NCBI RefSeq assembly: GCF_022008395.1
Contig: NZ_JAIRBB010000009.1
Span: 1 to 64,000 of the forward strand
From: Aequorivita xiaoshiensis
GTDB lineage: Bacteria > Bacteroidota > Bacteroidia > Flavobacteriales > Flavobacteriaceae
Length of the DNA stretch: 64,000 nt
Reading direction: 5' to 3'
Every line of letters starts with the position of its first letter. Within the stretch, counting starts at the first letter, position 1. A program made the position numbers and the translations under genes. A model generated the notes under the pieces. It saw nothing but the letters and a program-made list of their open reading frames with translations, was not told where the DNA came from and did not search any database. Below, one piece after another: positions 4,438 through 32,002 of this stretch.

Positions 4438-4480
4438 TGACATTTATCATTCTTAATTAATTACCTAAGGCTTATTTTTG
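4438..4480 (+). promoter_or_regulatory. Promoter with Crp/Fnr-type box for the thioredoxin-fold gene
   Basis: The box is TGAC-ATTT-ATCA (4438-4449) and the -7 element is TATTTTTG (4473-4480), a perfect TAnnTTTG match. Box centre to the last G is 36.5 bp, the same as at eight other promoters in the window. The predicted leader is about 14 nt, which supports the ATG at 4500 as the start. Confidence 0.7.
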
Positions 4481-4499
4481 CATTTATAAACAAAAAAAT

Positions 4500-5096
4500 A
4501 TGAAAACATTATTAGAAAAGTCGATAAATAAAGCAATGGATTATACACAGTATAACCTGCTTTTCAAACAATTGGTGAAAGAAGAAAGAACTACTGGTGA
4601 ATTCTCCCAAATGAAGGTCGATTACACAAAACTAAACTTCAGCCGAACTAAAAGATTGGATAAAACTGCTAAGGTTTCAGAAGAGGCTATGGAGGTATTT
4701 AAAAGTGTTTCTGATAAACAAACTTGGCTGGTTATTTCCGAACCATGGTGTGGAGATGCAGCGCAAACGCTTCCTTTCTTAAATAAAATTGCTCAAGAAG
4801 CAGATAATATCGATTTGAAAATTGTGCTTAGAGATGATAATCTTGAATTGATGAATCAGTTTCTTACTAATGGTTCGCAATCTATTCCTATAGTAATTAT
4901 GATTGATGAGGATATGAATGTGTTGCAAACCTTTGGTCCGCGTTCAAAAGCAGCTACTAAACTTGTTTCAGATTATAAAGAGGAGCACGGAAAAATTGAC
5001 GATGCTTTTAAAGAAATTATACAAGTTTGGTATAATAAAGATAAAGGTATTTCAATAGTAAACGACCTTGTAAATAGTTTGACTGTTAAAGCTTAA
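4500..5096 (+). CDS. Thioredoxin-family protein with single active-site cysteine
   Basis: A 198-aa cytoplasmic protein (no signal peptide) with a thioredoxin fold in the C-terminal two thirds. The active-site region reads SEPWCGDAAQ (residues 80-89), so the CxxC motif is reduced to Cys-Gly-Asp-Ala with one cysteine, C84. SIPIVIMID (about 127-135) supplies the cis-proline loop. A monothiol site favours peroxide, bacillithiol-type or glutathione-like chemistry, or a chaperone role, over dithiol exchange; that is inference. The N-terminal 60 residues are a helical extension typical of the flavobacterial relatives. Its promoter carries the shared Crp/Fnr-type box, which ties it to low-oxygen or NO conditions. 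The close-by promoter makes the first ATG the likely start. Confidence 0.75.
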   Translation: MKTLLEKSINKAMDYTQYNLLFKQLVKEERTTGEFSQMKVDYTKLNFSRTKRLDKTAKVSEEAMEVFKSVSDKQTWLVISEPWCGDAAQTLPFLNKIAQEADNIDLKIVLRDDNLELMNQFLTNGSQSIPIVIMIDEDMNVLQTFGPRSKAATKLVSDYKEEHGKIDDAFKEIIQVWYNKDKGISIVNDLVNSLTVKA

Positions 5097-5109
5097 GATA
5101 AGTAGGGAC

Positions 5110-5206
5110 ATCTTAGAACCAAGAGCCAAGAAACTAGAACCAAGAACCAAGAGCCAAGAAACTAGAACCAAGAAACTAGAGTCTAGAATCTAGAGTCTAG
5201 ATGGAA
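5110..5206. repeat. Low-complexity repeat array (AAGAACC/CTAGA units)
   Basis: Degenerate units AGAACCAAGAGCC and AAGAAACT grade into repeated TCTAGA-containing units (AGTCTAGAATCTAGAG). It resembles the array at 4326-4404 on the other side of the thioredoxin-fold gene, and the TCTAGA part recurs at 41825-41856. Confidence 0.65.
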
Positions 5207-5278
5207 TGGAATAAGACAAAGTATGCTTTGTCGAATTAATTTAACAGTTAAGCGGTCTAGGATTTTTAGAAAAAAATC

Positions 5279-5321
5279 TGACCTATATCATATCAAAAAT
5301 CCATTACATTCTCAATCTTTG
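5279..5321 (+). promoter_or_regulatory. Promoter with Crp/Fnr-type box for the acetyl-CoA hydrolase gene
   Basis: The box is TGAC-CTAT-ATCA (5279-5290) and the -7 element is AATCTTTG (5314-5321), one base from TAnnTTTG. Centre-to-G distance is 36.5 bp, so the ATG at 5339 would have a leader of about 12 nt. Confidence 0.65.
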
Positions 5322-5338
5322 TAACAAAATAAAAAACC

Positions 5339-6607
5339 ATGCAAATTGTATCTGCTCAAGAAGCTGTATCCATAGTAAAATCTAATAATCGCGTATTTTT
5401 TCAGGGCGCAGCAATGACGCCTAATTTATTGATAGACACTTTATGTGAGCGATACCACGAACTTAATAACGTTGAAATTGTTCAAATTCACACTCACGGT
5501 GAGGCAAAATACACCGTTGAACCTTATACGCAAGCCTTTCGCCTTAATAGTTGTTTTGTAGGTGATAATGTTCGCAAAGGAGTAAATACTATGTATGGCG
5601 ATTATACTCCAGTATTCTTAAGTGAAATACATTTGTTGTTCAGAAGAGGTATTCTTCCTTTAGACGTAGCGTTTATCCAAGTATCTCCTCCAGACAGACA
5701 TGGGTATTGCTCTTTGGGAGTTTCAGTAGATGTTACCTTACCCGCTATTCAAACTGCAAAACACGTGGTAGCCCTAATTAACCCAAATGTTCCAAGAACT
5801 CATGGAGATGGGATTATTCATATTAAAAAAATAGATTATGGCGTAGAGGTAAACACTCCAATTTATGCCGCTACCATAGGCGAGCCCTCTAAAATTGAAT
5901 CTATTATAGGTAGAAATGTAGCCGAATTGGTGGAAGATGGAGCAACCTTACAGATGGGAATTGGCAATATACCGAATGCTGTGCTGCACAATCTAACCAA
6001 TCATAAAAGACTAGGAATTCACACCGAAATGTTTAGCGATGGAATACTTCCTCTAGTTGAAAGAGGAATTATTACAGGCGAAGAAAAAGAAATAAAAACA
6101 GGCAAGATTGTTACGTGCTTTGCAATGGGGACTAAAAAATTGTACGATTTTATAGACGATAACCCGAATATCCACTTCAAAGAAGCTGCATATACCAACG
6201 ATACAGCTATTATTAGAAGGAATCCAAAAGTGACAGCTATTAATAGCGCGATTGAAATTGATTTAACAGGTCAAGTTTGTGCCGATAGTATTGGGATGTA
6301 TCAGTATTCTGGAGTTGGAGGACAAATGGATTTTATTCGCGGGGCATCACTCTCGGAAGGAGGGAAGCCAATTATAGCTATGCCTTCAATTACTACCAAA
6401 GGAATTTCAAAAATTACTCCATTTTTAAAAGAAGGCGCTAGTGTAACAACCACTCGGGCCCACGTGCATTATGTAGTCACCGAGTACGGGGTAGTTAATT
6501 TATTCGGAAAAGGTATCGAACAACGCGCCAAAGAACTTATTTCAATTGCTCACCCAGAGCATAGAGAAGCTTTAGAAAGAGAAGCTAGAAAAAGATTTAA
6601 TCATTAA
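5339..6607 (+). CDS. Acetyl-CoA hydrolase/CoA-transferase family protein
   Basis: A 422-aa class I CoA-transferase of the acetyl-CoA hydrolase/4-hydroxybutyrate CoA-transferase family. These enzymes move CoA between acetate and another acid through a glutamyl-CoA intermediate, or release acetate from acetyl-CoA. The candidate catalytic glutamate is E230 in HTEMFSDG, and the C-terminal half carries the GVGGQMDFIRGA glycine-rich CoA-binding loop. The length fits the family's two-domain form. It is a single gene, with a TAnnTTTG-like promoter and a Crp/Fnr-type box at the fixed distance, suggesting induction at low oxygen when acetate overflow or acyl-CoA exchange becomes useful. Substrate specificity (acetate, succinate, 4-hydroxybutyrate) cannot be read from the sequence. 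Confidence 0.85.
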   Translation: MQIVSAQEAVSIVKSNNRVFFQGAAMTPNLLIDTLCERYHELNNVEIVQIHTHGEAKYTVEPYTQAFRLNSCFVGDNVRKGVNTMYGDYTPVFLSEIHLLFRRGILPLDVAFIQVSPPDRHGYCSLGVSVDVTLPAIQTAKHVVALINPNVPRTHGDGIIHIKKIDYGVEVNTPIYAATIGEPSKIESIIGRNVAELVEDGATLQMGIGNIPNAVLHNLTNHKRLGIHTEMFSDGILPLVERGIITGEEKEIKTGKIVTCFAMGTKKLYDFIDDNPNIHFKEAAYTNDTAIIRRNPKVTAINSAIEIDLTGQVCADSIGMYQYSGVGGQMDFIRGASLSEGGKPIIAMPSITTKGISKITPFLKEGASVTTTRAHVHYVVTEYGVVNLFGKGIEQRAKELISIAHPEHREALEREARKRFNH

Positions 6608-8348: not shown

Positions 8349-8414
8349 TTCTGATAAATTTGTCATAATTATGATTTAAGTCATACTTTCTTCATTTTAT
8401 TCTACTGAAATTTG
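8349..8414 (+). promoter_or_regulatory. Dual operator promoter of ric
   Basis: An upstream dyad, TTCTGATA-AATT-TGTCATAA (8349-8368), matches the operator of the second rrf2 gene at most positions. Next comes a Crp/Fnr-type box, TGAT-TTAA-GTCA (8372-8383), with its centre 36.5 bp before the last G of GAAATTTG (8407-8414), a one-off TAnnTTTG element. The leader to the ATG at 8445 is about 25 nt. Confidence 0.65.
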
Positions 8415-8444: not shown

Positions 8445-9167
8445 ATGACAACACTTCAAGATAAAACAGTAGCAGATGTAGTTACGGAAAATATTAAAGC
8501 CGCTCACGTTTTCAAAAAGTATGGAATAGACTTTTGCTGCGGTGGAGGAGTAAGTATTAAAAAAGCATGTGAAAAAGCTGAAATTGATCCTGTTTTAGTA
8601 GAAACAGAAATACTTAACCTAGAAAATATAAAAGACCGTGCATTAGATTTTAACAGTTGGAAACTTGACTTTCTAACCGATCATATTATAAATGTTCATC
8701 ACGGTTATGTGGAAGAAAATAGTCCTTTATTACTTCAGTATTCGCAAAGAGTAAACCACGTACACGGGCATCATTACACCGAATTGGCCGAAATAGAATC
8801 CTTGGTAAAACAAGTGGTTCAAGAATTGGCAGCACATATGAAGAAGGAAGAATTAATTTTATTCCCATTTATTAAAAAACTTGTAAAAGCAGAACGTGAG
8901 GGTACAGTAGTTCCTCCAATACATTTTGGAACTGTTGAAAACCCGATTAAAATGATGGAGGCAGAACACGAAGAAGCAGGTGAAATTCTGCGTAAAATAG
9001 CTAAACTGAGTAACAATTTTACCCCGCCGCAAGGGGCTTGTAATACCTATAAAGCGTTTTATTCAAAACTTGAAGAATTTGAACAAGACTTACACCAACA
9101 CGTACATTTAGAAAATAATATCCTTTTCCCAAAAGCCTTAAAATTGGAAAAGACATTAAAAAATTGA
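8445..9167 (+). CDS. ric: Iron-sulfur cluster repair di-iron protein Ric (ScdA/YtfE)
   Basis: A 240-aa protein with the full Ric layout: an N-terminal DUF542/ScdA_N domain (residues 1-70) with GIDFCCGGG (27-35, vicinal C31-C32), then a hemerythrin-like di-iron domain. Its ligands include H80/H85, H105-H110, H131 with E135 (AAHMKKEELILFP), H175 (EAEHEEAGE), and a final HQHVHLENNILFP block. Ric repairs iron-sulfur clusters damaged by NO or peroxide and may release iron or handle NO directly. The gene is monocistronic: its own promoter has both dyads found elsewhere in this island, and a strong terminator follows. Placement by Rrf2 and nitrite reductase genes fits NO defence. Confidence 0.92.
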   Translation: MTTLQDKTVADVVTENIKAAHVFKKYGIDFCCGGGVSIKKACEKAEIDPVLVETEILNLENIKDRALDFNSWKLDFLTDHIINVHHGYVEENSPLLLQYSQRVNHVHGHHYTELAEIESLVKQVVQELAAHMKKEELILFPFIKKLVKAEREGTVVPPIHFGTVENPIKMMEAEHEEAGEILRKIAKLSNNFTPPQGACNTYKAFYSKLEEFEQDLHQHVHLENNILFPKALKLEKTLKN

Positions 9168-10556: not shown

Positions 10557-10599
10557 TGATAATTATCATTTAAAGAGAGATAAGGCTTTGCGATATTTG
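10557..10599 (+). promoter_or_regulatory. Promoter with Crp/Fnr-type box for ccoI
   Basis: The box is the perfect dyad TGAT-AATT-ATCA (10557-10568) and the -7 element is GATATTTG (10592-10599), one base from consensus. Centre-to-G distance is 36.5 bp. Confidence 0.7.
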
Positions 10600-10631: not shown

Positions 10632-13043
10632 ATGGTTAACTGTTTCCACTGTGGCGATGCGTGTCGCGACGACGTGATTACATACGACGAAAAGCCCTTT
10701 TGTTGCCACGGATGTAAGACGGTTTACGACATTCTACACGAAAGCGACTTAGGTTACTACTACGATCTTGAAAAAACTCCAGGAATTTCTCCCAACGAAA
10801 TCGCGGGAAAATTCGATTTTTTAGACAACGAAACCATTGTTGAAAAACTACTGGAATTTAACGATGGTAACATGCAAATTGTCTCATTTGTAATTCCTTC
10901 AATACACTGTAGTAGCTGTATCTGGATACTGGAAAATTTAAATAAACTCAGCCCATCTGTAATTTCATCTCAGGTTAATTTCCCTGAAAAAACAGTGCGA
11001 ATTTCTTTCTCTTCTGGGGAAGATGCCCTTAAAAATCTGGTGATTTTATTAAGCCGAATTGGCTATGAACCCTATATCTCTTTAGACGATTCGGATAAAA
11101 AAGATAAAAACGTAGACCGCAGTTTAATTTTTAAACTCACAGTGGCTGGTTTCGCATTTGGAAATATAATGTTTCTTTCACTTCCTGAATATTTTGAAGG
11201 ATCTGAATTTTGGTTAGACAGATTTAAACCCTTCTTTCGATGGTTGATGTTCGCTTTCTCGCTTCCAGTAGTCTTTTACTCAGCAAGCGGATACTTTATT
11301 TCAGCTTATAAAGGACTTCGATCTAAAATCTTAAATATCGATGTACCCATTGCTCTAGGTGTTGCCGTGCTTTTTATTAGAAGTACTATAGATATTGTAA
11401 TGGACTGGGGAACTGGTTTCTTCGATAGCTTGGCAGGACTTCTTTTCTTTTTATTACTAGGGAAATTCTTTCAGCAAAAAACCTATAGCTACCTTTCCTT
11501 TGAACGTGATTATAAATCGTACTTTCCAATAGCAGTTACCCGATTGTTTAAAAACTCAAAAGGGAGTACTGTTGAAGAACAAGCCGAAGTATATAAAGTT
11601 GAAAAAGGGGATCGCTTGTTGATTAGAAACAATGAAATTATCCCTGTAGATGCCATTTTAATAAAAGGAAATGCCCTAATTGATTATAGTTTTGTTACGG
11701 GCGAAGCCGAACCAATTTCCAAACAAAGTGGCGACAAGCTTTTCGCTGGAGGAAAACAACAGGCAGGAATTATTGAAGTTGAGGTTTTAAAACCTGTTTC
11801 TCAAAGCTACCTAACGCAATTGTGGAGTAACGATGTTTTTAGTAAGGATAGAACAGGAGTTTTTGAATCGCTTACAGACAGTATAAGTAAACGCTTTACA
11901 GTAACGCTATTAACTATTGCATTTATTGCAACCATTTTCTGGATGGTTGTAGATCCTTCAAAGGCGTTTAATGTGTTTACTGCTGTGCTAATTGTAGCTT
12001 GTCCTTGTGCTATTGCCCTGGCTGCACCATTTACATTAGGGAATGTGTTGCGTATCTTCGGAAGAGAAAAACTGTATTTAAAAGAAGCTTCAGTAATCGA
12101 ACAAATGGCAAAGTTGGATACCGTAGTATTCGATAAAACGGGTACGCTAACTACCAATCAAAAAAACTTAATCACCTATGAAGGTGTAGCGCTCACTGAG
12201 GAAGAACAAAAATTACTTACAAGTACACTTCGAGCTTCTAGTCATCCCTTAAGTCGTTCCCTATACAGCATTCTAGATAAAAACGATATTCAAACCTTAG
12301 AAGAATTTGAAGAAGAAGTAGGCAAGGGAATTTCAGCGTCGTATAATGACAATTCTATAAAAGTAGGCTCTTATGAATTTGTTGGTGATTCTAGCGATTC
12401 TATAGACGAGATTAAAAATAAAACTACTGTTCATATAAGCACAAACAAAGTCTATAAAGGCTGCTATGTTTTTAATAGTGAATACAGAACTGGAGTAGCC
12501 GATGTATTTAAGCAAATAGGAAGGGATAAAGAAGTGATTGTTCTTTCTGGGGATAATGAAGGTGAACGTGAACGTTTGGAAGCCATGTTGCCGCAAGGTG
12601 TTAAGTTGTATTTTAACCAAAAACCGAACGATAAATTAAATTTTATAAAAGCATTACAACACCAAGGCAAACGAGTGTTAATGATTGGCGATGGATTGAA
12701 TGATGCTGGAGCGTTAAAACAGAGTGATGTAGGCTTTGTAATATCCGAAAATACCAACGTTTTTTCACCCGCTTGTGATGGTATCATCGATGCATCTAAA
12801 TTCGATAAAATTCCAGACTATCTTAATTTTTCGAAAAAAGGAGTGCAAGTGATTAAATGGGCCTTCGTGCTCTCCTTGTTTTACAACCTTATAGGAATTT
12901 CATTTGCAGTAACCGGACATTTGCTTCCCGTTGTTGCAGCTATTTTGATGCCTTTAAGCTCTATTAGTGTGGTAGTTTTTACAACCGTTACCACCCAATC
13001 TATAGGGAAGAAATTAAGAATGAGTATAAATAAGAAAAGCTGA
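10632..13043 (+). CDS. ccoI: Cu(+)-translocating P-type ATPase for cbb3 oxidase assembly
   Basis: An 803-aa P1B-ATPase of the CcoI/FixI group. The N-terminus carries a cysteine-rich metal-binding head (C4, C7, C11, C24, C25, C28). A heavy-metal-associated domain follows with IHCSSC (C93, C96). The membrane copper motif is C457-P458-C459, the phosphorylated aspartate is D501 in DKTGTLT, and GDGLNDAGAL forms the hinge. It exports copper to the periplasm for insertion into the cbb3 binuclear centre. Its promoter has a perfect Crp/Fnr-type box. The TGA stop overlaps the box of the next promoter (13041-13052), so ccoI and ccoS-NOQP are probably separate but co-regulated units. Confidence 0.93.
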   Translation: MVNCFHCGDACRDDVITYDEKPFCCHGCKTVYDILHESDLGYYYDLEKTPGISPNEIAGKFDFLDNETIVEKLLEFNDGNMQIVSFVIPSIHCSSCIWILENLNKLSPSVISSQVNFPEKTVRISFSSGEDALKNLVILLSRIGYEPYISLDDSDKKDKNVDRSLIFKLTVAGFAFGNIMFLSLPEYFEGSEFWLDRFKPFFRWLMFAFSLPVVFYSASGYFISAYKGLRSKILNIDVPIALGVAVLFIRSTIDIVMDWGTGFFDSLAGLLFFLLLGKFFQQKTYSYLSFERDYKSYFPIAVTRLFKNSKGSTVEEQAEVYKVEKGDRLLIRNNEIIPVDAILIKGNALIDYSFVTGEAEPISKQSGDKLFAGGKQQAGIIEVEVLKPVSQSYLTQLWSNDVFSKDRTGVFESLTDSISKRFTVTLLTIAFIATIFWMVVDPSKAFNVFTAVLIVACPCAIALAAPFTLGNVLRIFGREKLYLKEASVIEQMAKLDTVVFDKTGTLTTNQKNLITYEGVALTEEEQKLLTSTLRASSHPLSRSLYSILDKNDIQTLEEFEEEVGKGISASYNDNSIKVGSYEFVGDSSDSIDEIKNKTTVHISTNKVYKGCYVFNSEYRTGVADVFKQIGRDKEVIVLSGDNEGERERLEAMLPQGVKLYFNQKPNDKLNFIKALQHQGKRVLMIGDGLNDAGALKQSDVGFVISENTNVFSPACDGIIDASKFDKIPDYLNFSKKGVQVIKWAFVLSLFYNLIGISFAVTGHLLPVVAAILMPLSSISVVVFTTVTTQSIGKKLRMSINKKS

Positions 13044-13083
13044 CGATTGTCATATTTTCGTGATGATTGTGATAATATTTTTG
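13041..13083 (+). promoter_or_regulatory. Promoter with Crp/Fnr-type box for ccoS-ccoNOQP
   Basis: The box is TGAC-GATT-GTCA (13041-13052), overlapping the ccoI stop codon. The -7 element is TATTTTTG (13076-13083), a perfect consensus. Centre-to-G distance is 36.5 bp. Confidence 0.7.
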
Positions 13084-13100: not shown

Positions 13101-13328
13101 ATGACGATAATTTACATGCTCTTGGCGCTCAGTCTTTTAGTTGCGATTATCTTTTTTGTACTGTTTATTTTTTCAGTAAGAAAAGGGCAATACGACGATA
13201 CCTATACGCCATCTGTACGAATGCTTTTTGACGATGAACTTGTAAAAGAAGATGCCGAACTAACAGGAGATAATACCGGAAAAAAACTGAATAAAACTAA
13301 AGTAAATTTAACCAATCCAGAAAAATAA
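13101..13328 (+). CDS. ccoS: cbb3 oxidase assembly protein CcoS
   Basis: A 75-aa protein with one N-terminal membrane helix (about residues 3-26) and the short cytoplasmic tail of the CcoS family, here containing YDDTYTPSVRMLFDDE, the acidic stretch conserved after the helix. CcoS is needed for cofactor insertion into the cbb3 catalytic subunit. It lies between ccoI and ccoNO, the usual flavobacterial order, 13 bp before ccoNO, and heads the transcript from the Crp/Fnr-type promoter. Confidence 0.9.
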   Translation: MTIIYMLLALSLLVAIIFFVLFIFSVRKGQYDDTYTPSVRMLFDDELVKEDAELTGDNTGKKLNKTKVNLTNPEK

Positions 13329-13341
13329 TTCTTTTACCATT

Positions 13342-15543: not shown

Positions 15544-15545
15544 TT

Positions 15546-16660: not shown

Positions 16661-16684
16661 TTAGAGAAATTACTTGTGTCTATA

Positions 16685-16734: not shown

Positions 16735-16766
16735 AATATTACGTTTCACATTAAAATATAATACCA

Positions 16767-18692: not shown

Positions 18693-18761
18693 TAAGGATT
18701 GATTTTTTAAATAGTAAACCCTATTTAAATTGATTTATAAACTCAGAATCGAGTTCTTAAA

Positions 18762-20360: not shown

Positions 20361-20396
20361 GTTTAATTTTTATCATGATGAATTAAGAAGTAGAGC

Positions 20397-21164
20397 CTAT
20401 TCTTCTATATCCTTAACACATCTAAATCCAAGGTTTTGTGAACTGTAACGGGCCTTCATACTTCCGCGAAATGCATATCGCATAAATGCAGCATAATTCA
20501 TTAAATCTGAAGCGCCAATAGCTGCACTACCGCAGAAAAGATTAGAGTCTTTATCCTGATCTTTTCGTGATTCTCCCGAAATTAGAACCGTATTAAAATC
20601 TTGTGTCCACTCCCATACTAGGCCGTGTAAATCGTATATTCCATAATAGTTTTTATAGGATTCTCCTATTGGATTTACATAGGTTTTAGGGGTTTCGTAC
20701 CAACTTAAAATATATTGATTATAAGATTCAATTCTTCTAGCGTCGGGAACGTCTTCATTTGCCATGGCGGCAAACTCCCATTCGTCTACTGTTGGTAATC
20801 GTTTTCCTTGGCATTCGCAATATTTTTTTGCTGCAAACCAAGAAACACTTGTTATTGGAGCATTAGGAAGACCACTATAAGTAACATCATCCTCCCATTT
20901 ATTAAGATAGCTTTTATCTGCAAACAGACTTATAACGTTGCTTTTTTTCCATTTTGGATTTTCCTTTACAAAATTTAAGTATTCCTCATTTGTAACAGGA
21001 TATACGTCCATCATAAACGGATCAACTTTTACCAATTGGTCTGCCGTTCCATAGAGCGGTAAAAAAACACCGCCCTTTACTTTGGCCATTTTATCATTTT
21101 GAGCAGTAACCTTAACAAATAATAGTGAACAGAATAAGAAAAGGGCGATGTGATATAATTTCAT
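20397..21164 (-). CDS. nirV: NirV-like formylglycine-generating-enzyme/SUMF1-domain protein
   Basis: A 255-aa exported protein (signal peptide about residues 1-21) made of one SUMF1/FGE-sulfatase domain. Typical features are MMDVYPVTNEEYLNFV near 50-65, SVSWFAAKKYCECQGKRLPT around 110-130, GLVWEWTQDF near 185, and the closing LGFRCVK. Proteins of this family coded next to nirK are called NirV; the role is not settled, possibly in maturation of the copper enzyme or electron-transfer chain. It lies 14 bp downstream of nirK and is clearly co-transcribed. The symbol is based on family plus context. Confidence 0.8.
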   Translation of the reverse strand: MKLYHIALFLFCSLLFVKVTAQNDKMAKVKGGVFLPLYGTADQLVKVDPFMMDVYPVTNEEYLNFVKENPKWKKSNVISLFADKSYLNKWEDDVTYSGLPNAPITSVSWFAAKKYCECQGKRLPTVDEWEFAAMANEDVPDARRIESYNQYILSWYETPKTYVNPIGESYKNYYGIYDLHGLVWEWTQDFNTVLISGESRKDQDKDSNLFCGSAAIGASDLMNYAAFMRYAFRGSMKARYSSQNLGFRCVKDIEE

Positions 21165-21178
21165 TTTATATAACTTTA

Positions 21179-22648: not shown

Positions 22649-22672
22649 AATGGTTGGTTTTTAAAAATTGAT

Positions 22673-23950
22673 TTATAATTTGGTTGTTTCATTTTTATTA
22701 TAAGTGAACAGTGTAGGATTTATTGTAACCATTGCCCAAGCCCAATAATTCGAATTGCCATCAAAGTTGTTTTTTACAATTTCGATACCTTTCGTAGCGA
22801 AATATTGAGAATAACCAAGATTTAACCCTACAAATTCATTCAATTTGTACGAAGTTAACAAATCCAATTCAAATCCTAAATTATTTGAATCATAGTTATT
22901 TATGTCTGCAGCAGCATAAAATTGATGAAGTGCTAAACTAAAATTTGTTGTAGTATTTAGGATGTACTTTACATTTCCGTAAATGTCTAATAGCCCTACA
23001 TTATTTATGTGGTTTCCTACGTAATAGTAATCCATGAGCCCATTAAACTTATGATTTGTTCCATAAAGAGGGGTAAAGGCTTTATTCTCCCCATTTGCTG
23101 GCGCACCATAAGTATTTCCACTTTGTAACTCGCTGCCTAATCCCAGATTTAGATTTGAAGTCGCAGCATAATTCGCTTCCAATGAGAATAAATATGCGCT
23201 TAAATCATTATCGGCTACATCTTTACCAAATTGATAGTAGAGATTTGAAGAAAAGTTGAAGTTATCAATTCTAGTTTTTAAGTGCATTCCAACAGTTTGG
23301 CTGTATCGAGTGTCATTATTAGCCGCATCAATTTCATCAATATATTGAAGTCCGTTGTTCAAAAACATAAAACTTGCAGATAGCTGTTCCCAATTCTTAT
23401 TTACCCAAATATATTGAAGGCTTTTATAGGTATTTACTGTAAGGAAGTTTCCAGTAAGGCTTTCATTGTCCTGATTATAAGCTGCACCAAAATGAAGTTT
23501 AAAATAACTTGGTTCATATTTCAAAATTGCAGCGTCGTGACTTCTTCCTTGTTGGGCCCAGCCAACATTCCCAAAGAAACGCTGATCGTCGTATACTATC
23601 TCCTGACGTCCAATTTTAAAATTAAAATCTTTAACCAAAAGTATTTCTGCCCAGGCCTGATGTAGTGAAAAGCCATTATTGTCTGCTACATTAAGTTGTG
23701 GCACATCTCCCCAAACTCGTACATCTTGCGGACTTAAATACAAGTGAAGTTTTTGAGTTTTATATTCAAAATTTAATCGTGTACGTTGTGAAACAAAGGC
23801 CGCAGGATCAACATTATTTGGGTAAAGTGTTTTATAACCGTGTCTAAGCTCAAATCTAGGACGTAGCTCTGCATCTAAAGTGAATTGCGAATAAACATTT
23901 ACAACCCCCAACATCAGGATAACAAATAATAGCTTTTTAGCAATACTCAT
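22673..23950 (-). CDS. Outer-membrane beta-barrel protein, alginate export family-like
   Basis: A 425-aa protein with a signal peptide (residues about 3-22) and a barrel of alternating strands. LDAELRPRFELRHGY opens the mature part, and KIGRQEIVYDDQRFFGNVGW is the conserved block of alginate-export (AlgE-like) porins. In denitrifying flavobacteria such porins occur next to nirK and may admit nitrite or other anions; actual substrate is inference. The frame extends 9 codons upstream to 23977, but that would place the start inside the operator and -7 element, so the ATG at 23950 is chosen. It is first in the porin-nirK-nirV-SCO operon. Confidence 0.8.
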   Translation of the reverse strand: MSIAKKLLFVILMLGVVNVYSQFTLDAELRPRFELRHGYKTLYPNNVDPAAFVSQRTRLNFEYKTQKLHLYLSPQDVRVWGDVPQLNVADNNGFSLHQAWAEILLVKDFNFKIGRQEIVYDDQRFFGNVGWAQQGRSHDAAILKYEPSYFKLHFGAAYNQDNESLTGNFLTVNTYKSLQYIWVNKNWEQLSASFMFLNNGLQYIDEIDAANNDTRYSQTVGMHLKTRIDNFNFSSNLYYQFGKDVADNDLSAYLFSLEANYAATSNLNLGLGSELQSGNTYGAPANGENKAFTPLYGTNHKFNGLMDYYYVGNHINNVGLLDIYGNVKYILNTTTNFSLALHQFYAAADINNYDSNNLGFELDLLTSYKLNEFVGLNLGYSQYFATKGIEIVKNNFDGNSNYWAWAMVTINPTLFTYNKNETTKL

Positions 23951-23966: not shown

Positions 23967-24017
23967 TTCTGACACAAATGTCTGAATATAAAATAAAAAG
24001 AAATATGACGGTTGTCA
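23967..24017 (-). promoter_or_regulatory. Dual operator promoter of porin-nirK-nirV-SCO operon
   Basis: Read on the reverse strand, a Crp/Fnr-type box (24006-24017; TGAC-GGTT-GTCA on the forward strand) lies 36.5 bp from the last G of GACATTTG (23982-23975). The -7 element sits inside a second dyad, TTCTGACA-CAAA-TGTCTGAA (23967-23986), the motif also found before rrf2 and ric. Activator box upstream and repressor-like dyad on the -7 region suggest dual control. Confidence 0.65.
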
Positions 24018-24040: not shown

Positions 24041-25405
24041 TTAAACAGTCATTGAAAACAGTTGTCTATCTGGTTGATTCCGTTGCAATAATACATCAAA
24101 TGCCATGCAGATATTACGCACAAAAGGACGGCCTTTTTCTGTTATATGTAGTTCTTTAGCGCCAATTTTCAACAAACCATCAGTCTCCATTTCCTTTAGG
24201 TTGTGAAGTACTTCTGGTAATTCTGGAAATTGAAGTGAGATGGCTTCCCAAGAAGTTTCTAAACTACACATCATATTTAAAATGTGTTTTCTAATAATTA
24301 GATCTTCTTCATTTAACATATGACCTCGATATACAGGAAGAACACCTTGTTCAACCAAATGTTGGTATTCCTCTACGTTTTTAGCATTTTGGGCAAAACT
24401 GTACCAGCTATCACCAATGGCAGAAATTCCAAGCCCAACCATTAACTGAGTTTTACTTTCGGTATATCCCATAAAATTTCTATGCAATTCTTTTTCTTCC
24501 ACTGCTTTGTATAAGCTATCCGATTTTAAAGCGAAATGGTCCATACCTATTTCAATATATCCAGCTTCTTCTAGCATTTTCTTACCAGCTTCATACATAT
24601 CTCTTTTTTCTGCAGGAGTAGGTAAGTCTGCTTCTTTAAAACCTCTTTGTCCGTTTCCCTTTATCCACGGCACGTGAGCATAGCTGTAAAACGCTATACG
24701 GTCTGGCATTAATTCTTTTGTTTTTTCTATTGAATAAATTACGTGCTCTTTTTTCTGAAATGGGAGTCCAAATATAATGTCGTGTCCTACCGAGGTATAA
24801 CCAATTTCCCGAGCACTTTCGGTTACTCGTTTTACATTCACAAAGGGTTGAAGTCTGTTAATCGCCACTTGAACCGTAGGATTATAATCTTGAACCCCAT
24901 AGCTCACTCTTGTAAAACCACAGTCGTAAAGAGTTTGTAAATGATCGCCTTTGGTGTTGTTTGGATGACCTTCAAAGCTGAATGATGGATTTTCTGCCAT
25001 TGTTGCATCTCGAAAAATACCTCTAATTAGAATTTTTAAGTTTTCTGCTGAAAAAAAAGTAGGTGTTCCTCCTCCTAAATGCAATTCCTTAATAATTGGT
25101 CTCTCATTAAATAGCGCAAGGTAAAGACGCCATTCTTTTAAAACAGATTCTAAATATGGGGTTTCAACAGCGTGATTTTTGGTGATGCGTTTATTACATC
25201 CACAAAAAGTACACAAGCTTTCACAAAAAGGCAGGTGTATATACACACTTATTCCTTCTTTCGAATTGCTTTCAGAAAAACTTTGTGATACATTTTTTTT
25301 CCATTCTTTTAATGAGAAGTTAGCCTCATTCCAATATGGAACAGTTGGATAACTTGTGTATCTAGGACCAGGAACATTATATTTTGAAACTAAATTGGAG
25401 GTCAT
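24041..25405 (-). CDS. hemN: Oxygen-independent coproporphyrinogen III oxidase
   Basis: A 454-aa radical SAM enzyme of haem synthesis. YIHLPFCESLCTFCGC (about residues 57-72) holds the CxxxCxxC cluster ligands and the extra cysteine typical of true HemN. GGGTPTFF, YGVQDYN and FGLPFQ are the next family blocks, and the C-terminal HemN domain is complete. It decarboxylates coproporphyrinogen III without oxygen, supplying haem for the cytochromes encoded here at low oxygen. A frame extension begins at TTG 25426 but overlaps the -7 element, so ATG 25405 is chosen. Its promoter has the Crp/Fnr-type box; it is divergent from the dihaem lipoprotein. Confidence 0.93.
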   Translation of the reverse strand: MTSNLVSKYNVPGPRYTSYPTVPYWNEANFSLKEWKKNVSQSFSESNSKEGISVYIHLPFCESLCTFCGCNKRITKNHAVETPYLESVLKEWRLYLALFNERPIIKELHLGGGTPTFFSAENLKILIRGIFRDATMAENPSFSFEGHPNNTKGDHLQTLYDCGFTRVSYGVQDYNPTVQVAINRLQPFVNVKRVTESAREIGYTSVGHDIIFGLPFQKKEHVIYSIEKTKELMPDRIAFYSYAHVPWIKGNGQRGFKEADLPTPAEKRDMYEAGKKMLEEAGYIEIGMDHFALKSDSLYKAVEEKELHRNFMGYTESKTQLMVGLGISAIGDSWYSFAQNAKNVEEYQHLVEQGVLPVYRGHMLNEEDLIIRKHILNMMCSLETSWEAISLQFPELPEVLHNLKEMETDGLLKIGAKELHITEKGRPFVRNICMAFDVLLQRNQPDRQLFSMTV

Positions 25406-25423: not shown

Positions 25424-25466
25424 CAAAATTAGAGCTGTTTGTTTGTTTCCTAAATGATTAATATCA
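25424..25466 (-). promoter_or_regulatory. Promoter with Crp/Fnr-type box for hemN
   Basis: The box at 25455-25466 (forward reading TGAT-TAAT-ATCA, perfect dyad) and the reverse-strand -7 element TAATTTTG (25431-25424, perfect consensus) are separated by 36.5 bp centre to G. The leader to ATG 25405 is about 13 nt. Confidence 0.75.
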
Positions 25467-25519: not shown

Positions 25520-25563
25520 GTAACATTTGTTACTATATGAAATAATTTATTATTTTAATTTTG
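25520..25563 (+). promoter_or_regulatory. Promoter with Crp/Fnr-type box for the dihaem lipoprotein
   Basis: The dyad GTAACA-TT-TGTTAC (25520-25533; core TAAC-ATTT-GTTA) lies 36.5 bp centre to G from TAATTTTG (25556-25563, perfect TAnnTTTG). The TAAC half-site differs from TGAC/TGAT but matches the site before the gene at 31601. Confidence 0.7.
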
Positions 25564-25590: not shown

Positions 25591-26613
25591 ATGAAATTAT
25601 CACTATTATTTATTGCCATACTTTTATTATCGGCTTGTAAAAACAATCGAGACGAGTATTTAGGAACAGCACAAATGCATGCTGTGGAAGGTATGCCTAC
25701 ACAGGAACATCCTGGAAAGAAGTTGATGGAGAATAACTGTAATATCTGTCATAATCCAAAAACTGCAGAAGAAAGCATCATTGCTCCACCAATGGTAGCC
25801 GTGAAAATGCATTATATTTCTGAAGAAACTACCAAAGCGGAATTTGTAGATGCGATGGTAGCGTGGACAAAAGAACCTTCGGTAGCGAAGTCGAAAATGC
25901 CTGGTGCTATTAAAAAATTTGGTTTAATGCCTTATCAATTTTATCCCGAAAAAACCATTAGGCAAATTGCTGATTATATGTTTGATAATGAAATTGAAAA
26001 ACCCGTTTGGTTTGATGCACATTATAAGAAAATGCACGGTGACCGACCGAAAATGAAAGGTAAAAAAAGTAATAGTAGGGGTAAAGGGAAGCAAAAAGGA
26101 ATAGGAGAAAACAATCTATTTGAACAACATTCTTCCAAAGAGCGAGGTATGCAAATTGCGCAAACCACTAAAGCTGAGTTAGGTAAAAATCTCATGGGAC
26201 AAATACAAAAAAATGGCGTAATAGAAGCCTTAAATTTTTGCAACGTGCAAGCTATGCCCATTACAGATAGTATGGCAACAATACACAAAGCAACGATAAA
26301 GCGTGTAACAGATAAACCTCGAAATCCTAAAAACACAGCAAACTCACAAGAACTAGAATTTATTAATCAATTTAAGACTCAAATTGCAACAGGGAGGGAA
26401 GTTGAGCCTATACTTGTGAAAAAAGGTAACAATACAGAATTTTATTTACCAATTGTTACTAATACTATGTGCCTTCAATGTCATGGTACTCCAGGAAAAG
26501 AATTAGAAACTATTACATTAGCTAAAATAAAACAATTGTATCCTTTAGATATGGCCACAGGTTATTCCGAAAATGAGGTGCGCGGTATCTGGAGTATAAA
26601 CTTTAATAATTAA
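25591..26613 (+). CDS. Dihaem c-type cytochrome lipoprotein with DUF3365-type domain
   Basis: A 340-aa lipoprotein (lipobox LLSAC, C16). The N-terminal cytochrome c domain has CNICH near residue 50-54, with methionines in APPMVAVKMH and SKMPGAIKKF as possible axial ligands. A Lys/Gly-rich linker (about 150-172) leads to a C-terminal DUF3365 (Tll0287-like) sensor-type domain that includes its own CLQCHG haem motif near 294-299. Such proteins may bind NO or redox ligands at the haem. It is co-transcribed with a methyltransferase 3 bp downstream and driven by a Crp/Fnr-type promoter divergent from hemN. Precise role unknown; periplasmic electron transfer or gas sensing are both possible. Confidence 0.8.
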   Translation: MKLSLLFIAILLLSACKNNRDEYLGTAQMHAVEGMPTQEHPGKKLMENNCNICHNPKTAEESIIAPPMVAVKMHYISEETTKAEFVDAMVAWTKEPSVAKSKMPGAIKKFGLMPYQFYPEKTIRQIADYMFDNEIEKPVWFDAHYKKMHGDRPKMKGKKSNSRGKGKQKGIGENNLFEQHSSKERGMQIAQTTKAELGKNLMGQIQKNGVIEALNFCNVQAMPITDSMATIHKATIKRVTDKPRNPKNTANSQELEFINQFKTQIATGREVEPILVKKGNNTEFYLPIVTNTMCLQCHGTPGKELETITLAKIKQLYPLDMATGYSENEVRGIWSINFNN

Positions 26614-27983: not shown

Positions 27984-28580
27984 TTAAAGGCTATTCAAGA
28001 AATCCTTAAAATCTTGCCTATCGTAGTCGGCCATTCCTTTATGCGTAAACACCAATTCTCCTTTTGAATTTATAATATAGGTAGTAGGGATGCTTTGTGA
28101 CTCATACATTCTTGGCATTGCGGCTATTGGAGCATAAACTTCAAAGTCAAAATTGTTTCTCTTTTTGTAAGCTATTGCCTTTTCAAACTTACGATCAAAA
28201 GAAATCATAAGCACTTCAACTTTATCCTTATCGATGTCGTTGTACATTTTGTTTATGCTAGGCATTTCTGCTACACATGGCGGACACCAAGTAGCCCATA
28301 GGTTTATAAATATTACCTTCCCACGAAATTGTTCCATAGAAACCTTTTCCCCTTTAGAATTTACCAACTGTAAATTGAAATCGGCTTTGGTTGCCGTAGG
28401 GCCATTGTCTGTAATAGCTTCCTCTACTTTTTCAATATCTGGATTCATTGCGCCTGTAGCTAATAAACCGCGTTGAGCGAAACCGATAATTTCAGTGTGA
28501 ATCCCAGAAAAGTAAATTCCAAGTATTACCACTGCAAATACTCCGTATTCGATTAAATTTTTCTTTATTTTTTTGTTCAT
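27984..28580 (-). CDS. TlpA-like periplasmic thioredoxin
   Basis: A 198-aa membrane-anchored thiol-disulfide protein with one N-terminal helix (about 10-28) and a thioredoxin fold in the TlpA/ResA style. The active site is WATWCPPC near residues 92-99, and SIPTTYIINSKGE carries the cis-proline. It keeps cysteines reduced in the periplasm, for example for cytochrome c maturation or for sulfur enzymes. It is last in the reverse run after the SoxB-like gene (26 bp gap). The ATG at 28580 is preferred over an upstream TTG. Confidence 0.85.
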   Translation of the reverse strand: MNKKIKKNLIEYGVFAVVILGIYFSGIHTEIIGFAQRGLLATGAMNPDIEKVEEAITDNGPTATKADFNLQLVNSKGEKVSMEQFRGKVIFINLWATWCPPCVAEMPSINKMYNDIDKDKVEVLMISFDRKFEKAIAYKKRNNFDFEVYAPIAAMPRMYESQSIPTTYIINSKGELVFTHKGMADYDRQDFKDFLNSL

Positions 28581-28606
28581 ATTCAATTTCTTTAAAAGGT
28601 TGTATT

Positions 28607-30262
28607 TTATTTAAAAATGTAGTCTGTACCTGGCACTGTAGAAAACGAATTCACACCCAAATACTCACAATAGGCGCGACCGTCCATTTTAGGTGTGATA
28701 GGGGAGTGAAGCTTTAAGTATTCTTCTACCACTTCGTGAATGGTATAATCCTTAGTTTCAACATCAATCACATTAGGCATTCTACACAGTACGTGGTCTG
28801 GATCTCCAGGACGCTCACATGCAGAAATTGTGTAATATCTATTTTCATCAAGTGGTTCGCCATTTACTTCTATAGATATTATTCGTTCATTTTTATCATT
28901 CTGACTGTTAAACTCAACTTTCATCCCTGAAAATCGCACCAGCCATCCGCCAAATCGTTCAATAGCATTTTGTGCAAAAGCATTATGCATCTCTTTTTCC
29001 AACCACATTTTAATTTGCTTCCCTGTGGCTTTCCCTGTTTTTACCGGTTCGTTAACAGGCATTAAATTCCAAAGGTTTGCACGAGTTATCGCTGCTGGTT
29101 TACCATCTTTTGGAACGATAGGATTTCCAAATCTAAATCCGTTAGAAATTGAAATATCTGCCCCAGTTTTCCATCGTGCCGCGTCGGTTATTAAATTATC
29201 CATAGGATTTTCAACTGTAAGATATCGATACAATGGCTCCGTTGTGTACCCTACAATAGTTTCGAGATTTTCTTGATACGGAGCTTTGTTTTTGTTAATT
29301 ATAGCTTGTAGTTCAGGATCTGCTTTATATACTTCAGGATCTACATCTATAAGTTCATAATCGTCTTTTACCAACTTATTATTTACAAAATATAAGTTTA
29401 GCTTTCCTACAAACGATCCAAAAGCTCCCGGCTCGGTAACTTTTGCATAAGTACCTTGTATGGGCTGCCTAACGCGTTCGTGGGTGTCATTTCCTAGAAT
29501 ATAATCTACGTTTTCAGCAATTGGGCTATTGGCCAAGGTAACCTGCTTATAGATACCGATATGCGTAACTAAAAACATTACGTCAATTTTCTCATCTACC
29601 TTTACCTTGTCTATAAACTTTTTTACACTGTCGTCTATTTGACTAAAATTAATTCCTTTACTGAAAATAGGGTTCTGTCTTATAGGAACATCTGGGTCGT
29701 TTATGCCGATAAAGCCAAGACGAACGCCATCAATTTCCTTTACTAAATATGAAGGGTAAAGATTTTCATTACTCTCCTCATGTTTCATATTCTGAACAAT
29801 GGTAGGGGTTTCAAATTTTTCATAAACTTCAAGCATTTTTTGCTTGCCGTAAATTACTTCCCAATTGCCAGGAATTAACACATCGTAGTTCATGTTTTTA
29901 ATTACTTCAGACATTACTTCACCCTCAGAGAAAGCCACATAACCACTTCCTTGTATTAAATCACCGCCATCAACAATAACAGTCTTTCCTGGGTTTTTCT
30001 TTCTTTCTTCGTCAAAAAGCGTTTTTATATGCGCTAAACCGCCACGCTTTTTAAAGACAATCTCATTGTTTTCCCAAAATAACTCAGGGTGTGGGTCCAA
30101 TTGCCCGTGAATATCTGCAGTTTGTAAAATTGTGATTTTTAAAGTGTCTTGGATGTCACTGTTTGCTTGGGGACTTTTGTTAAAAGTAGGGCTGTTCCAC
30201 GCTATAAAAGTTGCAATACCCACAATTAAAGTTATATATGTATAAAAACGATTTGGTTTCAT
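28607..30262 (-). CDS. SoxB/5'-nucleotidase-like metallophosphoesterase
   Basis: A 551-aa exported enzyme (signal or anchor helix about residues 7-24). The N-terminal calcineurin-like domain has the dimetal motifs TADIHGQLDPH (49-59), DGGDLIQG, GNWEVIYG, a VTHIG histidine and GNDTHERV. The C-terminal half is the 5'-nucleotidase C domain ending in the GDPDHVLC region. The GNWE in place of GNHE and the overall length are reminiscent of SoxB thiosulfohydrolases, and it sits with two DsrE-like proteins, DoxX and TlpA. A nucleotidase role remains possible. No other sox genes are in the window, so a sulfur function is inferred from neighbours. Confidence 0.75.
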   Translation of the reverse strand: MKPNRFYTYITLIVGIATFIAWNSPTFNKSPQANSDIQDTLKITILQTADIHGQLDPHPELFWENNEIVFKKRGGLAHIKTLFDEERKKNPGKTVIVDGGDLIQGSGYVAFSEGEVMSEVIKNMNYDVLIPGNWEVIYGKQKMLEVYEKFETPTIVQNMKHEESNENLYPSYLVKEIDGVRLGFIGINDPDVPIRQNPIFSKGINFSQIDDSVKKFIDKVKVDEKIDVMFLVTHIGIYKQVTLANSPIAENVDYILGNDTHERVRQPIQGTYAKVTEPGAFGSFVGKLNLYFVNNKLVKDDYELIDVDPEVYKADPELQAIINKNKAPYQENLETIVGYTTEPLYRYLTVENPMDNLITDAARWKTGADISISNGFRFGNPIVPKDGKPAAITRANLWNLMPVNEPVKTGKATGKQIKMWLEKEMHNAFAQNAIERFGGWLVRFSGMKVEFNSQNDKNERIISIEVNGEPLDENRYYTISACERPGDPDHVLCRMPNVIDVETKDYTIHEVVEEYLKLHSPITPKMDGRAYCEYLGVNSFSTVPGTDYIFK

Positions 30263-30272
30263 TTTAGATATT

Positions 30273-30659
30273 TTAAAGGCTTAATAATTTATATCCTTTT
30301 TTCTGAAGTTGAAAAGCAGTTAAAAAGGCATTATCTACAACTTCCACTTCTTCAGGTAAATCTTTAGGGTCTACTTTTAGACGGTCTAAAGACATTTGGC
30401 ACACATTCAGACTTACGTTTTGCTTTATTGCCTGTATGCGGCTTTCTTCAGTTTCGGAAGTGGCTATCGGCAATACATTATTTCCGTAAAGAACAATTTT
30501 AAAGTCGCCAGAGGTATTTAATTCTTTAGCTGCGAGTAAGATGGGTTTTAGCTGTTCAGGGTTTGAAGTGAGCACCACAAAATCATCTGTAATTTGCTTT
30601 TGTTGAGCTGATACACTAAAACTTACTAGGGCGACAAGTACTATAAATATATTTTTCAT
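30273..30659 (-). CDS. Exported DsrE-like protein (first copy)
   Basis: A 128-aa protein with a clear signal peptide (residues 1-18, cut after VSA) and a small DsrE/DsrF-type alpha/beta fold. A single conserved-position cysteine lies in LNVCQMSLDRLKVDPKDLP near residue 90. DsrE-type proteins carry persulfide sulfur on such a cysteine, although most are cytoplasmic; here both copies are exported. It follows its paralogue by 11 bp and precedes the SoxB-like gene by 10 bp, so the three are one transcript. Confidence 0.75.
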   Translation of the reverse strand: MKNIFIVLVALVSFSVSAQQKQITDDFVVLTSNPEQLKPILLAAKELNTSGDFKIVLYGNNVLPIATSETEESRIQAIKQNVSLNVCQMSLDRLKVDPKDLPEEVEVVDNAFLTAFQLQKKGYKLLSL

Positions 30660-30670
30660 AATTTAAATTT

Positions 30671-31090
30671 TTAAAGTCCTAAGCTTAAATATCCTTTTTG
30701 TTGAAGCTTTAGGTTGTGTAAAATTCCATTATCTATTATTTCCACTTTCTTCGGAAGCTTTTTCGGATCGACATTAAATTTCTTTAATGAAAATCCACAG
30801 GCAACGATGTTTGCACCTACCTTTTTTGCTTCTTTCAGATGAGGTTTCATAGTTTCCAAATCGGTTAAATTGCCAATTTCCTTTCCACAAACAATTATTT
30901 CAAAATTCCCGAAGTTTTTCCCGTCTTCTTTTGAAAGTTCTTTCGCAGCCAAAAGGATTGGCTTGAGTTGTTGTACTTTTTTTGTGAGTACTACATAGTT
31001 TTGTTTTTCAGTTTCTTGTGCTATTGTGTTTTGTATATTCCCCAAAAGCATAAATAGGGAAAGCATAAAAGTTGAAAAGAGTGTTTTCAT
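30671..31090 (-). CDS. Exported DsrE-like protein (second copy)
   Basis: A 139-aa paralogue of the next gene, with a signal peptide (about residues 1-24) and the shared VVLT---QLKPILLAAKEL opening. The cysteine in IVACGFSLKKFNVDPKKLP aligns with that of the partner copy, and a further cysteine occurs earlier in IIVCGKEIG. The pair may act as a heteromer that binds sulfane sulfur in the periplasm; this is inference from family chemistry. Its start overlaps the end of doxX by 4 bp. Confidence 0.75.
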   Translation of the reverse strand: MKTLFSTFMLSLFMLLGNIQNTIAQETEKQNYVVLTKKVQQLKPILLAAKELSKEDGKNFGNFEIIVCGKEIGNLTDLETMKPHLKEAKKVGANIVACGFSLKKFNVDPKKLPKKVEIIDNGILHNLKLQQKGYLSLGL

Positions 31091-31494
31091 AGTTGTTGTA
31101 TTTTGTTGTTATTAAAGTCGTTTAGAATAAAAAAGAGTAGGCCTCCAGCAATTGCTATATTTTTAAAAAGTGGCCCTAAACTGTTTATTTGTCCTATCTG
31201 AATGGTAATAGTTATAGGAATAAGCACAGCGAGCAATACTATTGCTGCCCATCGGGTTTTAAAGCCAATTAAAAAGCTAATCCCCGCCGCCAACATTACA
31301 ATTCCTGATAGAATCACTAATAGTTCAAGGTGGCCAAAAAACTCGGCAAATCCCTTAAATTTAGCCATCTGAATGCGGTTTACTGTTTTTTCAATTTCAA
31401 TTAAGTGATTGGCTCCCGCCATTAAAAATATTCCGCTTACCATAATGCGTAATATCTGCACAGAGCGTTTGCCAACAGTTAGCGTTGGATTCAT
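31087..31494 (-). CDS. DoxX-family membrane protein
   Basis: A 135-aa protein with four membrane helices (about residues 10-30, 50-70, 76-96 and 104-124) and the DoxX opening LRIMVSGIFLMAGANHL. DoxX/DoxD relatives include the small subunit of thiosulfate:quinone oxidoreductase, but many have other or unknown functions. It overlaps the following DsrE-like gene by 4 bp (ATGA), so the two are translationally coupled. No separate promoter with a Crp/Fnr-type box was found; it may be read from the promoter upstream of 31951. Confidence 0.78.
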   Translation of the reverse strand: MNPTLTVGKRSVQILRIMVSGIFLMAGANHLIEIEKTVNRIQMAKFKGFAEFFGHLELLVILSGIVMLAAGISFLIGFKTRWAAIVLLAVLIPITITIQIGQINSLGPLFKNIAIAGGLLFFILNDFNNNKIQQL

Positions 31495-31600
31495 AAATAT
31501 GTATGTTAAAGATTGATAGATGTTTTATCGATAGCAAAATCTATTCACCTATAGAATCGGGTTTTCCTAAATCGATAAAAAATAAAATGCCTGAATATAA

Positions 31601-31951
31601 TTATGAAAGGCGAGGAGGAAGGTAGTTTCGTTCGTCAAACAAATTTAATTTGAGGAACTCTTTAAAAGTAATATTTTCATAATTGTCTTCACTGTAAACC
31701 AAGGTAAATTCAGGGTTTATAAAATCGACAAATGATGTGCACATAAGTGAAATTTGAGCCTGTTGTTCGTGCTGATGGTCGATAACTTCAGCCTTTGAAT
31801 CGGCAGCAGTAGAAATTTTGTTTTTACAATAAGGCTTTACAAAAGTGATGTTATCGGTAACGAAATGCGCGAAACCACTATAACTATTAAAAACCAGACT
31901 CATCAAGATAAGTCCGGCGAAGATATATGCTATTGTGCTCTTAGGTTTCAT
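31601..31951 (-). CDS. Small membrane-anchored protein heading the sulfur cluster, 116 aa
   Basis: An unrecognised protein with one N-terminal hydrophobic helix (about residues 5-27) and an extracytoplasmic domain containing two cysteines (KPYCKNK and SLMCTSF) and an HQHEQQ segment, a possible metal-binding patch. The frame opens at a TTG in the -7 element, so the ATG at 31951 is chosen; that leaves almost no leader and suggests leaderless translation. The promoter matches the regulon design exactly. A 106-bp gap separates it from doxX, so a common transcript is possible. Confidence 0.65.
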   Translation of the reverse strand: MKPKSTIAYIFAGLILMSLVFNSYSGFAHFVTDNITFVKPYCKNKISTAADSKAEVIDHQHEQQAQISLMCTSFVDFINPEFTLVYSEDNYENITFKEFLKLNLFDERNYLPPRLS

Positions 31952-31957
31952 TACAAG

Positions 31958-32002
31958 CAAATCTAAATATTACTTTATAATTAGAGTGTAACTTGGGTTA
32001 CA
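31958..32002 (-). promoter_or_regulatory. Promoter with Crp/Fnr-type box for the 116-aa membrane gene
   Basis: The dyad TGTAAC-TTGG-GTTACA (31987-32002; core 31989-32000) is 36.5 bp centre to G from the reverse-strand -7 element TAGATTTG (31965-31958, perfect consensus). The TAAC/GTTA core matches the site at 25521-25532. Confidence 0.7.

Follow-up and report, generated by a model that had tools for sequence, protein, structure and literature searches.

Promoter-like sites of invariant spacing in Aequorivita xiaoshiensis point to two Crp/Fnr-type regulons built on a shared plan

Do nine promoter-like sites that share a dyad and a spacing constitute one regulon, and which protein would read them? 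The question is raised by a stretch of 64,000 nucleotides from the flavobacterium Aequorivita xiaoshiensis (contig NZ_JAIRBB010000009.1, positions 1 to 64,000), hereafter the window, which is part of the 113.6-kb contig C83 in a genome of 3.06 Mb and 83 contigs. To our knowledge, the control of low-oxygen respiration and of nitrite and nitrous oxide reduction in the Bacteroidota is poorly mapped. A sequence-only reading of the window had proposed a single regulon of nine promoters, in each of which a dyad of the form TRAY-N4-RTYA lies 36.5 bp, measured from the dyad centre, from the last G of a TAnnTTTG-type -7 box. The feature is real, strong and widespread; the count and the position given in that reading were right, and its assignment of all sites to one regulon was not. 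We regard it as probable that the nine sites are class II activator promoters of two regulons sharing one geometry, with the regulators proposed below.

A pattern search of the window recovered every dyad at the coordinate and on the strand claimed for it (Table 1). The dyad alone showed no enrichment, with 29 occurrences in the window versus 31.7 expected. When a TAnnTTTG box with at most one mismatch was sought at 36.5 bp, it was present for nine of the 58 dyad orientations, and these were precisely the nine sites that had been named. Five of the boxes are exact and four have the first T changed; AnnTTTG is constant in all nine, the deviant boxes at 5314, 8407, 10592 and 23975 being altered at that first T only. 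Among 40 spacings compared in the window, the 36.5-bp bin held nine cases and every other bin three or fewer. The contention that such fixed spacing is hard to obtain by chance was upheld by 200 dinucleotide-preserving shuffles, in which the 36.5-bp spacing occurred 0.69 times on average and three times at most, versus the nine seen, and no spacing exceeded seven. At all nine sites an open frame has its ATG 7-33 nt beyond the final G of the -7 box.

The same composite recurs far beyond the window. Of 73 TGAYN4RTCA...TTTG pairs in the genome, 17 stood at the exact spacing, versus 1.9 on average at each of 30 other spacings, in a list where dyads matching both strands or having two TTTG runs were entered more than once and where the site at 10557 was missed at its true spacing, a nearer TTTG being taken instead. 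For two of the 17 (C1:29580 and C32:201106), which may be chance matches, no frame of 60 aa starts in the scanned stretch. Exact TGAY composites, ten in number, are all followed by a start codon 16-29 nt past the -7 G; three belong to targets in the window and seven lie elsewhere. Targets outside the window are a cytochrome-c-like gene at the head of a nosZ-nosL run, two universal stress proteins (one by profile, one by resemblance), a ribosome-hibernation-type protein (Ribosomal_S30AE), a pyridine nucleotide-disulphide oxidoreductase, an outer-membrane efflux protein and a lipoprotein-like gene. Across 149 genomes of the family the exact TGAY composite was found 1154 times versus 21 for a backwards control, and among the 150 matches listed in the family spacing scan 86 stood at the exact spacing, the next commonest spacing having 10. 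In other families of the class (48 genomes, one per family) there were 174 matches versus 4 controls, with at least one composite in 41 of the 48; in the full set, 199 of 247 genomes had a match. A TGAY composite at 37.5 bp was also seen before a small membrane-type gene (G000:C65:74412-74455), and 44-bp composites like it are listed in genomes G027 and G115, the correspondence being one of length.

Where these dyads stand relative to the transcription start can be judged from Flavobacterium psychrophilum, in which mapped starts place TAnnTTTG at -12 to -5, the last G being -5 (PMC9723704). Applied to the present sites, that numbering would place the dyad centre at -41.5, so that the class II position assigned earlier to these sites is consistent with the geometry of all nine. 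A Crp/Fnr-family dimer bound at -41.5 would assist the housekeeping polymerase at the TAnnTTTG -7 box. The geometry itself is read directly from the DNA, and activation is what it would predict.

The nine dyads are of two types. Seven read TGAY-N4-RTCA and precede the genes for the cbb3 oxidase, NirK, HemN and RIC, among others, whereas two (25521 and 31989) read TAAC-N4-GTTA(C), a second motif. Thus nine sites of shared geometry stand, as had been claimed, and the single motif and single regulon do not. The view that the targets make physiological sense is borne out, respiratory and denitrification genes being found among them.

Six TAAC composites occur in the genome, five of them at the exact spacing: the two in the window and three lying within 1.6 kb downstream of a Crp/Fnr gene, C54:143780-144412, whose neighbours encode a TauE/SafE permease and a metallo-beta-lactamase/rhodanese protein. 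The loci of the 20 best matches to this protein, its own included, gave 19 TAAC composites, 18 of them at the exact spacing and all 19 reading GTAACnnnnGTTAC; 14 of the 20 loci have at least one composite, and 11 have one at no more than about 35 bp from the 3' end of the regulator gene, with gene ends taken from the locus layout. A TauE-like permease follows 11 of the 18 exact sites, as judged by eye. All 20 proteins have three cysteines and the helix SRVV(I/V)SR, and all have Val at the position of CRP Glu181 in an alignment to CRP made by eye. The genes after 31989 (DoxX, DsrE-like, 5'-nucleotidase C-terminal and thioredoxin fold) are sulfur-related in look. Because TAAC sites cluster at the C54 gene and at sulfur-type genes, the promoters at 25521 and 31989 most likely belong to a reactive-sulfur regulon, in which the C54 protein would read the TAAC-N4-GTTAC sites. 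That protein has three conserved cysteines and may therefore sense reactive sulfur through its thiols. In locus L135 (genome G123) the C54-type regulator gene is itself preceded by one exact TAAC composite, which hints at autoregulation.

The nearest known counterpart is HcpR2, for which, according to Rodionov et al. (PMC1274295), the motif is GTAACnnnnGTTAC and a change of the Glu at CRP position 181 is linked to this motif. The two TAAC sites of the window match the same sequence and the C54 protein likewise has no Glu at that position; however, HcpR2 has Pro there and the C54 protein Val, and the neighbours of the C54 gene are sulfur-type genes.

For the seven TGAY sites the regulator has to be sought elsewhere in the genome; as stated in the sequence-only reading, none of Crp/Fnr type is encoded in the 64-kb window. 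The genome has seven proteins of the cNMP fold. One of these, encoded at C4:29901-30959 (352 aa), is a fusion of a receiver with a Crp-type regulator (REC-Crp; domains Response_reg, cNMP_binding and HTH_Crp_2) and is 96% identical to a protein of Aequorivita sinensis. Its gene starts 1 bp behind a kinase gene, and the pair, flanked by the nos run (nosZ) and by stress-protein genes, has exact composites in its surroundings. The best PDB match to the kinase PAS domain is FixL (E 7.9e-20), with an aligned His and an aligned Arg, which we take to be the haem ligand and the distal residue, as in FixL. A kinase is directly upstream of REC-Crp in 77 of 80 named loci, one exception being cut by a contig end; among 78 aligned kinases, this one included, the His is kept in 72 and the Arg in 64. 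All 81 REC-Crp proteins retain the receiver Asp and Lys and the recognition-helix Glu and Arg. Their loci contain 147 exact composites, whereas none of the other spacings between 8 and 44 is represented more than 16 times; when the 67 long loci were divided into 500-bp bins, the bin where the REC-Crp gene ends held 54 sites. By eye, runs of universal-stress-like and ATP-cone-like genes surround the regulator (G000:C4:21123-28539), giving the region the look of an anaerobic-stress island.

A logo of 147 sites, taken from the loci around REC-Crp alone and rich in one orthologous site, showed that the outer bases of TTGAT-N4-ATCAA are avoided there: the outer T occurs in 3% and the outer A in 1%, T standing in place of the latter in 97%. 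Counted from the dyad start, positions 15-17 of the same sites, at which a -33 TTG element would presumably have its G, seldom carry that base (3-7%); such scarcity would be expected if the activator replaces the -33 contact. The canonical TTGAY-N4-RTCAA box was considered and set aside, being found at 21 places in the genome versus 17 for the backwards control and hence not clearly enriched. In G033, a genome with only the FNR type described below, several sites have RTCAAAA instead of RTCAT, which hints at another outer base for some FNR-type proteins.

The best regulator candidate for the seven TGAY sites is REC-Crp behind the FixL-like kinase, and probably not a plain Fnr. The kinase would respond to low oxygen through its PAS domain and phosphorylate the receiver of REC-Crp, which would then bind and activate the TGAY promoters directly as a low-oxygen and denitrification regulon. 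From sequence we infer binding, phosphotransfer, haem and oxygen sensing, and activation rather than repression. FixLJ-FixK targets in rhizobia include the cbb3 oxidase and nos/nir genes, as do the TGAY sites here. The FixL-FixJ-FixK system likewise joins a FixL-type PAS kinase, a receiver step and a Crp/Fnr-family output, a likeness that for our proteins is one of sequence; here, however, the output attached to the receiver is cNMP_binding plus HTH_Crp_2 and not the LuxR-type helix-turn-helix of FixJ. Since receiver and Crp/Fnr output are one protein, neither a FixJ-type output nor an intermediate transcription step would be needed, and kinase and REC-Crp would compress the cascade into two proteins with no separate FixJ-to-FixK step.

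Other genera carry a different protein with nearly the same recognition helix. In six FNR-type proteins of 225-246 aa, a CxxC near the N-terminus is followed further on by CFIP, and the recognition helix reads GTATES.IR, near-identical to GIATESLIR of the REC-Crp here. One of them, aligned to solved FNR, agreed at both cysteine places; the third of the N-terminal cysteines is displaced or absent in these proteins. Counting REC-Crp when full-length and down to 40% identity, and the FNR type at E <=3.8e-57, we found the former in 66 and the latter in 88 of the 149 family genomes. Exact sites numbered 276 in the 31 genomes with REC-Crp only, 486 in the 35 with both, 355 in the 53 with the FNR type only and 37 in the 30 with neither. 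Every one of the 119 genomes with either protein holds sites (31/31, 35/35 and 53/53), while 15 of the 30 with neither hold none. The difference persists in genomes of at least 2.5 Mb, 11 of which have neither protein (p <1e-5 for each group, phylogeny ignored). The cysteine-bearing FNR of other genera thus probably reads the same TGAY sites.

Dyad type was also compared in the sister species G027, in stretches chosen for exact composites, the ccoI and porin sites not being among those. Type and spacing are kept at all five testable promoters (ccoI, ccoS, porin-nirK, hemN and haem lipoprotein); the -7 boxes there are exact in three and have one mismatch in two, and the spacer sequences differ. 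The haem lipoprotein promoter keeps its TAAC type and lies directly beside a C54-type regulator gene.

Chance selection of nine among 29 dyads could be held responsible for the spacing, given that the dyad by itself occurs at chance frequency, and yet the probability left to it is practically nil, for it is refuted by the shuffles, by the genome-wide spacing counts and by the family-wide counts against the backwards control. The original proposal, a single regulator governing the nine sites as one regulon, gains from the likeness of spacing and -7 box and from the neighbouring position of the genes, and is nevertheless very improbable: the TAAC composites cluster at the gene of another regulator together with sulfur-type genes, in the sister species every one of the five promoters that could be compared retains its own dyad type, and the C54 protein has Val, by an alignment made by eye, at the CRP Glu181 position, a change at which is reported to track this base (PMC1274295). 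A canonical 4Fe-4S FNR serving as the oxygen sensor of this genome would fit the occurrence of FNR-type matches in so many relatives with the same sites, the six proteins inspected all having the N-terminal CxxC. For A. xiaoshiensis a plain FNR was rejected and has, in our estimation, only the slimmest of chances; an FNR query gave a single match in the genome, at 5.0e-28, which is the strength of REC-Crp matches elsewhere, and an N-terminal CxxC is absent from all seven cNMP-fold proteins, REC-Crp included. In FNR and Anr the half-site type, four-base spacer, class II position and low-oxygen targets are alike, whereas REC-Crp has a receiver domain and sites near it avoid the outer T/A.

Several observations weigh against two regulons read by REC-Crp and the C54 protein. 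The haem-ligand position is Phe in four of the 78 kinases and Ala in one. The kinase/REC-Crp operon has a TGAY site that itself breaks the rule, its spacing being 38.5 bp in the loci of Aequorivita and 37.5 bp in those of Aquimarina. With all spacings summed, the TAAC composite was found 661 times versus 693 controls in the 149 genomes; the family-wide TAAC signal is confined to the exact spacing, above all with GTTAC, the exact spacing being seen in 48 of 150 TAAC matches listed and in 39 of the 53 among those reading GTTAC. The co-occurrence statistics are uncorrected for phylogeny and include REC-Crp relatives down to 40% identity, and the 30 genomes with neither protein hold 37 exact sites versus 1 control. 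Among these, G048 has nine sites, G147 seven and G138 five, at completeness of 82, 73 and 99%, which calls for a further reader, or for a gene that was missed, in these genomes. Four of the nine targets have no orthologue in the G027 stretches compared. Finally, a third Crp/Fnr protein, C83:80276-80908, is encoded on the contig of the window, 16 kb beyond it, and its helix VETVIR has the Glu and Arg that a reader of TGA would be expected to carry. It might read the seven TGAY sites, leaving REC-Crp to control something else; this we consider unlikely, as the composite scans show no TGAY composite of exact spacing in the neighbourhood of its gene while REC-Crp is adjoined by exact sites in many genera, and as its helix is unlike the TES.IR common to REC-Crp and the six FNR-type proteins. 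The offset at the kinase/REC-Crp promoter is conserved (L057, G000:C4:32203-32247; L147-L226 near 4700), and its ATG comes only a few nt past the -7 box, which would make the transcript nearly leaderless.

The features of the window are collected in Table 1. In the cbb3 operon, ccoN and ccoO occupy one open frame (13342-15543, COX1 and FixO domains), and NirK (21179-22648) has a cytochrome c domain at its C-terminus. Two neighbouring Rrf2-family regulators (6705-7677) and a hemerythrin-like protein (7832-8296) lie between the CoA-transferase gene and ric, and could contribute nitric oxide or iron-sulfur control. A tRNA scan of the window found none.

Table 1. Dyads, -7 boxes and downstream genes of the nine composites in the window
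Feature	Position	Strand	Remarks
TGAY-type dyad, 5' of thioredoxin-fold gene	4438..4449	+	pattern match
-7 box TATTTTTG	4473..4480	+	exact, 36.5 bp from dyad centre
Thioredoxin-fold gene (Pfam Thioredoxin_9)	4500..5096	+	domain match; ATG 20 nt past -7 G
TGAY-type dyad, 5' of CoA-transferase gene	5279..5290	+	pattern match
-7 box AATCTTTG	5314..5321	+	first T changed
Acetyl-CoA hydrolase/transferase	5339..6607	+	
TGAY-type dyad, 5' of ric	8372..8383	+	pattern match
-7 box GAAATTTG	8407..8414	+	first T changed
ric, iron-sulfur cluster repair di-iron protein	8445..9167	+	NCBIfam TIGR03652 above cut-off
TGAY-type dyad, 5' of ccoI	10557..10568	+	type and spacing kept in sister species
-7 box GATATTTG	10592..10599	+	first T changed
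Cation P-type ATPase, putative CcoI	10632..13043	+	from domains and place
TGAY-type dyad, 5' of cbb3 oxidase operon	13041..13052	+	kept in sister species
-7 box TATTTTTG	13076..13083	+	exact
cbb3 operon: putative ccoS-like 75-aa first gene, fused ccoNO, ccoP, ccoG, ccoH, DsbD_2 gene	13101..19508	+	
TGAY-type dyad, 5' of porin-nirK	24006..24017	-	kept in sister species
-7 box GACATTTG	23975..23982	-	first T changed
Alginate-export-type porin, NirK, FGE-sulfatase-type protein, SCO1/SenC	19740..23950	-	
TGAY-type dyad, 5' of hemN	25455..25466	-	kept in sister species
-7 box TAATTTTG	25424..25431	-	exact
hemN, oxygen-independent coproporphyrinogen III oxidase	24041..25405	-	TIGR00538 above cut-off
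TAAC-N4-GTTA(C) dyad, 5' of haem-motif lipoprotein gene	25521..25532	+	TAAC type kept in sister species
-7 box TAATTTTG	25556..25563	+	exact
Lipoprotein-like protein, cytochrome c and Tll0287-like domains	25591..26613	+	
TAAC-N4-GTTA(C) dyad, 5' of sulfur-type gene run	31989..32000	-	
-7 box TAGATTTG	31958..31965	-	exact; ATG just 7 nt downstream
Small membrane-type gene, DoxX, two DsrE-like, 5'-nucleotidase C-terminal protein, thioredoxin-fold protein	27984..31951	-	one of the two DsrE-like matches below Pfam cut-off

In searches of the openly licensed PMC literature, limited to the terms used and judged by titles and abstract openings, we found no description of the -41.5 rule, nor of a Bacteroidetes protein that joins a receiver to a Crp-type regulator and follows a FixL-like kinase. 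In PMC8510549, metagenome-assembled genomes were scanned with five known motifs and the Flavobacteriales homologues were treated as MalR-like. The F. psychrophilum study reports that oxygen limitation raises cbb3 oxidase and haem-synthesis genes, which fits our proposal; a text search of its main text found neither 'crp' nor 'fnr' (PMC9723704).

For the family as a whole we lean, with moderate confidence, towards a low-oxygen regulon of invariant class II plan whose sensors are interchangeable, either a cysteine-bearing FNR or the kinase/REC-Crp pair, with a second, sulfur-linked regulator sharing the plan. Because that second Crp/Fnr regulator uses the same plan, the spacing would be set by the Bacteroidota housekeeping polymerase and not by any one regulator. 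A fixed promoter ruler of this kind makes the regulon readable from sequence in many genomes and points to candidate regulators, and the dyad types separate the sulfur regulon from the oxygen regulon. If the exchange of sensors is true, it would be a clean case of an input rewired with the target sites unmoved, and the shared ruler opens the general question of how an activator contacts the polymerase of TAnnTTTG promoters.

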